Shown here: piece after piece, positions 59,919 through 62,549 of the stretch
Position numbering within the stretch: the stretch's first letter is position 1
How the letters are laid out: every line of letters begins with the position of its first letter
Source: Serratia sp. M24T3
GTDB taxonomy: Bacteria > Pseudomonadota > Gammaproteobacteria > Enterobacterales > Enterobacteriaceae
Length of the DNA stretch: 64,000 bases
Assembly: GCF_000257645.1 (NCBI RefSeq)
Contig: NZ_AJHJ01000008.1
Span: forward strand, 62,001 to 126,000
Reading direction: 5' to 3'
Position numbers and translations under genes: made by a program
Notes under the pieces: generated by a model
Seen by the model: only the letters and a program-made list of their open reading frames with translations
Databases searched by the model: none
What the model was told of the DNA's origin: nothing

Positions 59919-60305
59919 TCAGGCAGATTTTTGCTGGATCATGTGCAGCGGTGGTGCGACATCGAGTTTTATCTCGGGATTTTGGCGAAACTCGTGAGGC
60001 GTGATGTTAAAACGCTTGCGGAACATATAGGTAAAGTGCGACTGCGAGCCAAAGCCAAAATCCATGGCGATATCAAAAATAGATGAATCGCTGCTGCTCA
60101 ATTGATAGACCGCGCTAGCAAGGCGACGTTCGCGAATGTACTTGCCGAGGGAAATGCCTGTCGACTCTTTAAAGAGTTTTTGCATATGCCAAAGTGAGTA
60201 GCCAGAATATTCTGCCAGCTCCTCAAGATGGATCACTCTGCCCAAATGGCCTTCAATCCATTTGCTGAGTGCGTTAACGACAGAGAGGTGAATATCTTGT
60301 GCCAT
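59919..60305 (-). CDS. MarA/SoxS/RamA-like AraC-family activator
   Basis: A single-domain AraC regulator of 128 residues. Two helix-turn-helix units are visible: LEELAEYSGYSLWHMQKLFKE (about residues 28-48) and IFDIAMDFGFGSQSHFTYMFRKRF (about 76-100), with the linker YIRERRLASAVYQL typical of the MarA-SoxS-Rob group. No sensory domain is present, so activity would be set by its level. In related bacteria such regulators raise efflux and lower porin expression; that role here is inference. It ends exactly where the NTF2-like gene ends. Confidence 0.88.
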   Translation of the reverse strand: MAQDIHLSVVNALSKWIEGHLGRVIHLEELAEYSGYSLWHMQKLFKESTGISLGKYIRERRLASAVYQLSSSDSSIFDIAMDFGFGSQSHFTYMFRKRFNITPHEFRQNPEIKLDVAPPLHMIQQKSA

Positions 60306-60437
60306 AGCCTGTCAGTGATTAGTTTCGATAAGATGATTATACACAAATTCGCGGCCTAAGCGGCCACGACGAATCCGCAATCCAGAGCAGCAAGTTTAAA
60401 TCATCTGCGATTATGGCTTAAAATCCTGCACTGGTGC

Positions 60438-60545
60438 TTAACGTAGCAGTATCCAGTGAATAATGCGGGCAATAACATCGTCCAGAACCACAATGCCAAC
60501 AAGGATTGCGATCACCATTAAAATAAAACGTTTACCGGTGGGCAA
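60438..60545 (-). CDS. Candidate very small membrane protein, 35 residues
   Basis: A 36-codon ORF starting at TTG (60545) with AGAGG five bases upstream. The product begins MPTGKRFILMV, has a single hydrophobic helix of about 18 residues (ILMVIAILVGIVVL), then DDVIARIIHWILLR. Basic residues before the helix fit an N-in orientation. An internal ATG ten codons on has no ribosome site. I do not recognise it. It lies downstream of, and in the same orientation as, another tiny membrane ORF and a penicillin-binding protein gene. Confidence 0.5.
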   Translation of the reverse strand: MPTGKRFILMVIAILVGIVVLDDVIARIIHWILLR

Positions 60546-60579
60546 AATAACCTCTCAAGAACCTTGTAGCCTAGTGTCG

Positions 60580-60672
60580 TTAACCCCAGGGGTTAGTGCC
60601 ACGCATGTTCAGGGCGATGACTAAAAGACAGACTGTCAGGAAAACCAGGATAACAATAAAGAGTCTTTTCAT
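60580..60672 (-). CDS. Candidate very small membrane protein, 30 residues
   Basis: A 31-codon ORF with ATG at 60672 reading MKRLFIVILVFLTVCLLVIA, then a short polar tail with MRGTNPWG. It is a classic short single-helix membrane peptide with a basic N-terminus. No strong Shine-Dalgarno motif is visible. A possible promoter (TTAACA, 17 bases, TAGATT; plus-strand 60734-60762) lies just upstream. It precedes the 35-residue ORF by 34 bases, so the two may be co-expressed. Not a gene I recognise. Confidence 0.5.
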   Translation of the reverse strand: MKRLFIVILVFLTVCLLVIALNMRGTNPWG

Positions 60673-60733
60673 ATTGGAAGACCGCGTCTATGAAGGAAAA
60701 TTAACACAGAAAGGTACAAAATTCATTTGGCCA

Positions 60734-60762
60734 AATCTAGTCTTGCCGCATGAAATTGTTAA
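60734..60762 (-). promoter_or_regulatory. Candidate promoter for the tandem micro-ORFs
   Basis: On the minus strand TTAACA (five of six matches to the -35 consensus), a 17-base spacer, and TAGATT (four of six at -10), in the gap after the transpeptidase gene. Confidence 0.35.
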
Positions 60763-60785: not shown

Positions 60786-62549
60786 CTATTGAGCACCTTT
60801 TTCTTTCAACTTAACAGCTTTACTGGAAGACACGACTGTCGTTGGCGGTGTTTCAGGGACCAAAGCATCGGGCGCAATGTTCATATGATTCAGCACTTGC
60901 CCCATAATGTCGCCAAAAATCGGGCCAGCTACGGAACCACCGAAGTGTCGACCTGCCTGAGGATTGTTGACCATTACCACCAAAGCGACGCGAGGATTAC
61001 TTGCCGGAGCCACGCCCGCCGTGTAGTTAATATAACCGCCGTCGTATTTTCCGCTCGGCCCCATCTTCTCTGCCGTACCCGTTTTAATCGCCAGTCGATA
61101 GCCTGGCACCGCGGCGCTCAAACCCGATCCGCCTGGCAAGGCATCGCTTTCCATCATATGTACCACAGTTTCAACCACACTTTTGTCCATGACTCGCGTT
61201 CCGAGTACCGGTGGTGTCACTTTAGTGATAGAAAGCGGGCGATAAATACCAAAAGAGCCGATGGTGGCGTACTCGCGGGCAATTTGCAGCGGCGTGACGC
61301 GCAGGCCGTAGCCAAACGCAAAAGTTGCACGTTCGATATCGGCCCAGCGCTCACGGTGCAGCGGGAAATAACCGCCGCTTTCGCCGCCAATGCCTAGATC
61401 GGTTGGTTTGCCCAATCCAAATGAACGATATTGATCGACCAATACTTGTGCAGGCATCGCCAGCGCAATATGTGATACGCCGATGTCACTGGATTTTTGC
61501 AGCACGCCGGTAATGGTGAGTGCGGATTCGTGTCCAACGTCGCGGATGAGGTGTCCGTTAACGGTATAGGGGCGAGTATCCAGAACGGTATCGGGCCTAA
61601 TAATCTTATGCGCCAGACCTGCCATGACAACCAGTGGCTTTACAGTGGAGCCGGGTTCAAAGCTGTCGCTAATCGCCACGTTACGCATGTCTTTAACGTC
61701 TGTGCCAGCGTAATTATTTGGATTGAAAGAGGGGTAGGAGGCCATTCCTAAAATTTCACCGGTATTGACGTCAACCATGACAGCAGCGCCGGAGTCTGCC
61801 TGGTTCAACATTACGCCTTTGCGCAGCGCGGCATAAACAGTGTATTGGATATAGCTGTCAATGCTCAGGTTAACCGTCGGCGGCTGCTGCGGCGGCACGT
61901 CCTTCAAAATACCAATGATATTGCCCTGACCATCCTGGCGATACTCGCGCATGCCAGGTTTACCTTCCAACAGGGAGTTGAAACCTTTCTCAATGCCAGT
62001 CAGCCCTTCATTATCAGTACCGACCACGCCAACCAGATTAGAAGATGCTTCACTCATTGGATAATAACGGCTGTCATCATGCTGGAGGATAACGCCGCCA
62101 AGATGCAGTTCACCGATATCTTTGGCGATACCCTGTTCGATTTTTCTGCCCAGGAACACAAAACGACGTTTAGGATCGCTGGTAATCGTCTGCTGCAGCT
62201 GTGAAAGCGGCATGTCGAGAGCCGAAGCAAGATACTGCCATTTAGGGCTGTTTAAATCACTGTGCAGTTGTTCGATACGGAAAGGGTCGGCGATAACGTC
62301 TTTTGAAGCCACGCTTAATGCTAATGGATGGCCATTACGATCGGCAATGGTGCCGCGATCGGCAGGAATGATTTGGGTGCGCAGCGATCGCTGATCGGCC
62401 TGACGCTCGAGCATTGGCCGGTTGAGGAGCTGCAGATAGCCAACTCGTCCGAGCAGTAATAGCATACATACGACTATCCCCAAGCAAATCAACGCGAAAC
62501 GTTTGGAATAAAAATGAGGTTGGGCGCTGTTTTTCTTGGGATTTGGCAT
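60786..62549 (-). CDS. FtsI-like class B penicillin-binding protein (PBP3SAL-type)
   Basis: A septal or elongation peptidoglycan transpeptidase of 587 residues, a paralogue of FtsI. A single N-terminal membrane helix (about residues 18-40) anchors it; the pedestal domain follows (PADRGTIADRNGHPLALS). The transpeptidase motifs are S301-x-x-K304 (EPGSTVKPL), S353-S354-D355 at the SxN position (QKSSDIGVSH), and K489-T490-G491 (AIKTGTAEK). The Asp in the second motif differs from the Asn of classical FtsI. It is not in the dcw cluster, so it is a second enzyme like Salmonella PBP3SAL, used in acidic conditions there. Lacks the C-terminal tail of some FtsI proteins. Confidence 0.9.
   Translation of the reverse strand: MPNPKKNSAQPHFYSKRFALICLGIVVCMLLLLGRVGYLQLLNRPMLERQADQRSLRTQIIPADRGTIADRNGHPLALSVASKDVIADPFRIEQLHSDLNSPKWQYLASALDMPLSQLQQTITSDPKRRFVFLGRKIEQGIAKDIGELHLGGVILQHDDSRYYPMSEASSNLVGVVGTDNEGLTGIEKGFNSLLEGKPGMREYRQDGQGNIIGILKDVPPQQPPTVNLSIDSYIQYTVYAALRKGVMLNQADSGAAVMVDVNTGEILGMASYPSFNPNNYAGTDVKDMRNVAISDSFEPGSTVKPLVVMAGLAHKIIRPDTVLDTRPYTVNGHLIRDVGHESALTITGVLQKSSDIGVSHIALAMPAQVLVDQYRSFGLGKPTDLGIGGESGGYFPLHRERWADIERATFAFGYGLRVTPLQIAREYATIGSFGIYRPLSITKVTPPVLGTRVMDKSVVETVVHMMESDALPGGSGLSAAVPGYRLAIKTGTAEKMGPSGKYDGGYINYTAGVAPASNPRVALVVMVNNPQAGRHFGGSVAGPIFGDIMGQVLNHMNIAPDALVPETPPTTVVSSSKAVKLKEKGAQ

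Follow-up and report, generated by a model that had tools for sequence, protein, structure and literature searches.

The window analyzed here, a stretch of 64,000 nucleotides from a Rouxiella genome (G000, contig C8:62001-126000), carries two tandem micro-ORFs on its minus strand, between a gene encoding a PBP3SAL-like FtsI-type transpeptidase (60786..62549, minus strand) and a gene encoding a MarA/SoxS/Rob-type AraC regulator of 128 amino acids (59919..60305, minus strand). The first, ORF1 (60580..60672, minus strand), comprises 30 codons, starts with ATG, and encodes a predicted bitopic membrane peptide, MKRLFIVILVFLTVCLLVIALNMRGTNPWG, in which a basic N-terminus (K2 and R3) is followed by a single hydrophobic stretch. 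The second, ORF2 (60438..60545, minus strand), comprises 35 codons, starts with TTG, and encodes a second predicted single-helix peptide, MPTGKRFILMVIAILVGIVVLDDVIARIIHWILLR; a direct comparison of the two peptides showed them to be unrelated. An AGAGG Shine-Dalgarno site (60551..60555, minus strand) is located 5 nucleotides 5' of the TTG codon of ORF2, and a clear Shine-Dalgarno site was not seen for ORF1 in the Rouxiella loci. The initial annotation, which was made from the sequence alone, had proposed the two ORFs, the AGAGG site with its TTG start, and the identities of both flanking genes, and all of these were recovered, with the qualification that neither flanking gene reaches the cut-offs set for the named families (for the transpeptidase, 727 bits against PRK15105, slightly below the cut-off of 737). 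The same genome also has an FtsI-like copy with 53% identity to the PBP3SAL-like protein. Elsewhere in the window, the nuoG RNA element RF01748 (24486-24528, plus strand) was the sole Rfam match at the gathering score.

The suggestion of a basic N-terminus and a single hydrophobic helix in each peptide agreed with the best 17-residue Kyte-Doolittle means (3.44 for ORF1 and 2.75 for ORF2) and with structure models, which yielded a helix over residues 2 to 26 of ORF1 (mean pLDDT, 86.7) and one helix over residues 6 to 34 of ORF2 (modeled from residue 4 to 35; mean pLDDT, 95.2), with D/E23, R27, and H30 sharing one side, although single-sequence models of such short peptides hold little information past the helix itself. 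In dinucleotide shuffles of the 480-base gap, a pair of hydrophobic ORFs on one strand was obtained in 0 of 1,000 cases and at least one such ORF in 9 of 1,000, under a criterion (ORFs of 25 to 60 amino acids with a hydrophobic 17-mer mean of ≥2.6) whose threshold was chosen after ORF1 and ORF2 had been seen.

A scan of species genomes seeded with the transpeptidase yielded 21 loci, and the order PBP3SAL-like gene, ORF1, ORF2 was kept in 18 of them, a count that is biased toward linkage since the search started from the transpeptidase gene. In the remaining three (Edaphovirga cremea L019, Erwinia sp. L027, and Pantoea sp. L029), the transpeptidase gene was found without adjoining ORFs. For the window, these 18 loci, and G003 (20 loci; four rows from genus g128 were omitted before counting, and start codons and the last, variable ORF1 codon were excluded), pooled pS and pN were 0.617 and 0.139 for ORF1 (pN/pS, 0.22) and 0.614 and 0.154 for ORF2 (pN/pS, 0.25). 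Column shuffling gave mean ratios of 0.87 and 0.86, respectively, and none of 200 shuffles was as low as the observed value for either ORF, with each shuffle scored on 30 sampled pairs and the observed value on all pairs. Variable columns at the first, second, and third codon positions numbered 13, 7, and 26 of 28 each in ORF1 and 22, 9, and 32 of 34 each in ORF2. Frame-breaking indels and random substitution patterns, which had been named as the outcome that would speak against the two ORFs, were encountered in none of the 20 loci compared. The start codon of ORF2 interchanges between TTG, GTG, and ATG in place among relatives, behind purine-rich sites like AGAGG, and its open frame is 36 amino acids long in some genomes, where upstream stops leave scant space for another start. 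Similarly, the open frame of ORF1 is just 30 and 31 amino acids long in G346 and G063, respectively, so that upstream stops nearly force the start at its ATG codon. Among 17 aligned homologs, M1, R3, V7, F11, C15, M23, G25, P28, and W29 are invariant in ORF1, and F7, A26, R27, and H30 are invariant in ORF2, in which position 23 is always acidic. At the level of sequence comparison, conservation, selection on the amino acids, start and stop positions, and gene order are thus established, and the starts, the codon pattern, and the pN/pS ratios provide strong evidence that both ORFs are translated and under selection; chance ORFs are ruled out as an account of the pair. Each being shorter than 50 residues, with one hydrophobic helix, and selected as protein, ORF1 and ORF2 can be placed among the predicted small bitopic membrane proteins.

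Neither ORF had a convincing match in Pfam, NCBIfam, or PHROGs or any match among solved structures at an E value of ≤1, and for ORF1, no Pfam family was found even at an E value of ≤10. Weak family-library matches (NF040912, E = 0.0072; SE2200_fam, 0.14; SieB, 0.019; PHROG 35975, 0.011; and others) were all at 0.007 or worse and below the cut-offs where these exist, and they were ignored. In the open-licence literature, we found no report of these peptides, also when searching by sequence fragment, and no report on small proteins of Rahnella, Ewingella, or Rouxiella or on small-ORF ribosome profiling in Rahnella. In summary, ORF1 and ORF2 are new to the curated libraries searched but are of an ordinary kind.

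Profiles built from the first homologs found distant homologs, and extended profiles, which include some of the sequences that they recovered, were then used to search 392 genomes of the family, with E values expressed per genome. The ORF1 profile matched 38 genomes at an E value of ≤0.01, and 26 of these matches reached 1e-14 or better (8 of 154 genera), and the ORF2 profile matched 32 genomes, 28 of them at 1.3e-6 or better (8 genera); the first ORF2 profile, in which lone copies were not included, matched lone ORF2 in eight genomes at E values of 1.6e-4 to 0.0088. Strong matches to both ORFs were present in 17 genomes, namely, five of Rouxiella (g1), five of the Ewingella group with Hafnia psychrotolerans (g25), five of Rahnella (g60), and two of g128; beyond these groups, genera among the 392 genomes have one ORF alone and never both. 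Twelve of the 38 ORF1 genome matches were weak (E = 4e-5 to 0.008) and were taken as chance: weak matches L085, L086, and L087, when read in frame, break off or have lost the PW tail, and L085 and L086 fall in what we take to be a ptrA-recB-like stretch. Of the ORF2 genome matches, 4 of 32 were weak, the one in G313 being a decayed copy beside ORF1. A collection of E. coli genomes contained no DNA match to either ORF.

Lone ORF1 occurs in g5, g129, g137, and g165, with strong matches in seven genomes; in the five of these that were read, it sits between mdtG (the MdtG match at L129 scores 523 bits, below the cut-off of 571) and a presumably nitroreductase-like gene, for which an NCBIfam match was absent at 1e-20. 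We considered MdtG itself as a partner, but 35 of the 36 genomes compared have an MdtG match (20 genomes with ORF1 and 16 taken as being without it; the match in G158 is merely 38% identical, and G024 has none), which offers no discriminating signal. A gene for an EptB-type lipid A phosphoethanolamine transferase (L129:9314-11014; 1024 bits) is located approximately 3 kb from the lone ORF1 at L129, and a protein with a start similar to that of this EptB-type protein adjoins the transpeptidase gene in Edaphovirga L019. A PBP3SAL-like gene in G132, another of the lone-ORF1 genomes, is fragmented and contains stops, which gives the impression of decay (G132:C1:352171-353745). Lone ORF2, found in g111, g143, g154, and g170, adjoins what is presumably an rsmF-like gene in all six genomes read (G249, G324, G158, G267, G114, and G378), and in four of these six, a serine/threonine phosphatase gene is adjacent as well (at L135, 292 bits, below the cut-off of 326). 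Length is kept in the lone copies of both families, with pN/pS ratios of 0.08 for ORF1 (seven sequences, from seven of the seven loci given) and 0.38 for ORF2 (10 of the 11 loci given, L108 having been missed by the search pattern). The first four lone copies of ORF2 to be aligned have only 31% identity to the window copy, align at the same length without gaps, and retain F7, A26, R27, and H30. Finally, ORF2 was not found in G373 and has decayed in G313, with loss of conserved residues, while ORF1 persists in both; the pair is therefore not obligate, and ORF1 can do without ORF2. The defined starts, the invariant residues, and the lone homologs in several genera allow these two conserved micro-protein families to be annotated and tested directly.

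A plausible promoter had been proposed to precede the pair. The promoter-like site found by scanning upstream of ORF1, TTAACA-N17-TAGATT, is not conserved in aligned relatives, but a different, two-block element is: TAGATT-N17-TACCTT (60711..60739, minus strand), a candidate promoter or regulator site. Of the 20 loci, 19 have an element of the form T[GA]GAT[TC], 16 or 17 nucleotides, and a TAACGT/TACCTT-like block, located 67 to 145 nucleotides upstream of ORF1 (spacing of 17 in 18 loci and 16 in one; absent in L013), according to a pattern composed after the sequences and their alignment had been seen. The hexamers, TGGATT-N17-TAACGT/TACCTT, are unusual. Among nine genomes, exact matches numbered seven, six at the ORF1 locus and one elsewhere in G008 (the reversed pattern gave one); since nearly all are local, we rejected the element as a regulon signal, and a local promoter fits better. 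Scanning 180 nucleotides upstream of ORF1 with 15 consensus strings of known boxes, and with plain shuffles as the control, we found that 10 of the 15 patterns had mean best mismatches within about 1.5 standard deviations (SD) of the shuffled value or above it. Mismatches were below the shuffled values for the CpxR box (2.60 versus 3.08; SD, 0.13) and the PhoP box (3.45 versus 3.75; SD, 0.13), and the marbox was lower by 1.5 SD. However, an exact CpxR box occurs in just 2 of 20 loci, at one place shared by L012 and its close relative G003, and a marbox with ≤2 mismatches upstream of ORF1 occurs in 4 of 20 loci, at differing places, and not in the window; with sites this few or scattered, no known box was adopted.

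In the Rahnella and Ewingella-group loci L014 to L018, L020 to L026, L028, L030, and L031, the stretch from a GGAGG-like site to the ORF1 start contains a short hairpin (mostly AGAGC-loop-GCTCT), an unusual arrangement that could tune translation. Paired cells amount to 98.4% (13 of 15 loci), with one compensatory change that was matched by 42 of 500 shuffles, i.e., weak covariation, and with per-locus shuffle fractions of 0.009 to 0.23; an equivalent stem before ORF1 is absent in Rouxiella badensis, Rouxiella silvae, and G003. On the other side of the pair, a GGCCCG...CGGGCC repeat followed by T residues was read by eye 3' of ORF2 in most Rahnella loci. A TATAAT sequence before the AraC gene (60336..60341, minus strand), in a stretch that appeared by eye to be conserved in most aligned loci, is probably the promoter of the AraC gene itself, so that this gene need not share a transcript with the ORFs; taken together with the repeat, this suggests that ORF1 and ORF2 may form a separate transcription unit.

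In 17 of the 18 loci linked to the transpeptidase gene, the AraC gene starts less than approximately 600 nucleotides from the end of that gene, behind ORF2; it is about 7 kb away in H. psychrotolerans, and it lies about 0.75 kb behind ORF2 in G131. Of 15 genomes tested, four (G000, G346, G131, and G373) have the AraC gene at an E value of ≤1e-40, with 85 to 93% identity in the three other than the window genome, and it was not found in the remaining 11. These four are the genomes with an ORF1 locus of the window kind, and the gene is present in none of the nine lone-ORF genomes and neither of the two others. While shared ancestry of the genera could explain this co-occurrence as well as a functional connection could, the MarA-like gene appears from gene content to be the more constant companion and a better lead than the transpeptidase, and it is possible that the regulator controls ORF1 and ORF2, although no marbox is conserved upstream of them.

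Our preferred reading, to which we assign a probability of roughly 0.6, is that ORF1 and ORF2 are genuine genes encoding two unrelated families of inner-membrane micro-proteins that make helix contacts with a larger membrane protein. AcrZ, MgrB, and MgtS act in such a manner, by packing a helix on a larger membrane protein. In the model that we infer for co-transcription, membrane insertion, topology, and the existence of a partner, ORF1 and ORF2 probably share a transcript and constitute a small unit by themselves. Since the start of ORF1 is basic and, according to the positive-inside rule, the basic end of a membrane helix is cytoplasmic, its N-terminus most likely stays on the cytoplasmic side, and a short M-x-G-x-x-P-W tail would protrude into the periplasm. 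ORF2, which has basic residues at both ends and hence an ambiguous topology, would form a long helix, toward whose C-terminal end D/E23, R27, and H30 make up an acid-Arg-His stripe. Each peptide would probably alter the activity or stability of a larger membrane protein against which its helix packs. Modulation of membrane proteins, as put forward in the initial annotation, thus still seems the likeliest role, but the adjacent transpeptidase is probably not the target. A bolder version, which we consider a long shot, is that the two families were recruited in tandem beside a dedicated MarA-type regulator and jointly tune an envelope sensor, efflux, or lipopolysaccharide system through paired transmembrane helices; if true, two helices and one activator would make up a small stress-response module in a single enterobacterial group.

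Among the alternatives, we regard it as rather unlikely that the peptides belong to type I toxin-antitoxin pairs, as membrane toxins of the TisB, Ibs, or TimP kind that an antisense RNA silences. TisB and Ibs are membrane toxins of this type, and the size and hydrophobicity of the peptides are compatible with such a function, as is the hairpin between the Shine-Dalgarno-like GGAGG and the start of ORF1 in Rahnella and the Ewingella group. However, the window has no match to RF00126 (timP) at the gathering score, and a promoter-like site on the plus strand (60395-60424) is not kept in aligned Rouxiella. Additionally, each genome has a single match per ORF, at fixed places and with strong selection on particular residues, and a protein search of 72,556 plasmid and 50,697 phage records gave no match to either ORF.

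That one or both peptides regulate the neighboring PBP3SAL-like transpeptidase is in keeping with their same-strand adjacency in 18 of the 21 loci found through that gene, but it now appears unlikely. The small protein reported with PBP3SAL, in the excerpted text of PMC10492807, is MreD. In g128, the ORFs and the transpeptidase gene are unlinked: in G131, ORF1 and ORF2 are on a different contig, with >120 kb of contig on both sides, and in G373, roughly 680 kb of one contig separate ORF1 from the transpeptidase gene. The ORFs and the transpeptidase gene are on separate contigs in the drafts G241 and G313 as well, with the ORFs close to contig ends, so that these two drafts do not decide linkage. 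PBP3SAL/FtsI-type genes were present in all 16 genomes tested; leaving aside Rouxiella and H. psychrotolerans, a copy at 68 to 70% identity exists in 10 of 14 genomes, G132 has the fragmented copy described above, and G140, G389, and G169 have copies solely at 51 to 54% identity. An intact copy at 68 to 70% identity is absent in four of the five lone-ORF1 genomes tested, lone homologs of both ORFs occupy other loci, and L019, L027, and L029 have the transpeptidase gene with no adjoining ORFs. Location beside the enzyme, which had been read as making the peptides its candidate regulators, is thus a poor guide to a partner: the neighbor of a micro-ORF can mislead, and the wider comparison detaches both ORFs from the enzyme and points toward the co-inherited regulator gene.

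We deem it very unlikely that ORF1 is a shortened MgrB relative tuning PhoQ or another sensor kinase. The two have a common layout, with a basic start, a transmembrane helix with a cysteine, and a C-terminal PW, and hhalign aligned 16 transmembrane columns (34.6% probability; pairwise E = 0.00041), but this alignment is confined to the transmembrane part. MgrB function needs the periplasmic residues C28 and C39 and the transmembrane residue W20, according to excerpts of PMC8404706. ORF1 has neither the periplasmic cysteines nor the transmembrane tryptophan: in the 17 aligned sequences, cysteines are confined to the helix, and the sole tryptophan is at the C-terminal end. Neither PF13998 nor any other Pfam family matched ORF1 in the search at an E value of ≤10, and the genome has an MgrB of its own (G000:C5:32137-32223; 62.9 bits). 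Finally, it is hardly credible that the conservation reflects an RNA element or regulatory region and not proteins, because, although some upstream sequence is conserved too, substitutions fall at third codon positions, pN/pS is far below the null expectation, and coding is preserved at unrelated loci as well.

As probable helix-contacting membrane micro-proteins, ORF1 and ORF2 can be set beside several known systems. TimP (RF00126), whose toxicity and repression by TimR in enterobacteria are described in excerpts of PMC7667032, is likewise an overlooked, conserved enterobacterial small membrane protein; ORF1 and ORF2 differ from it in having no RF00126 match at the gathering score, in that no conserved antisense unit was seen in the aligned Rouxiella, and in being paired micro-ORFs. 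MgrB (PF13998), the PhoQ inhibitor, resembles ORF1 in its length of <50 amino acids, basic N-terminus, one transmembrane helix, helix cysteine, and PW end, whereas ORF1 has a tail of just about eight residues and is devoid of the periplasmic cysteine pair and transmembrane tryptophan. AcrZ, MgtS, KdpF, and CydX, in turn, are small bitopic proteins that serve transporters and enzymes as subunits or regulators. In contrast to these, ORF1 and ORF2 have no convincing Pfam or NCBIfam family match, but they share with them their size, a single helix, and a probable action on a large membrane protein through helix contacts.
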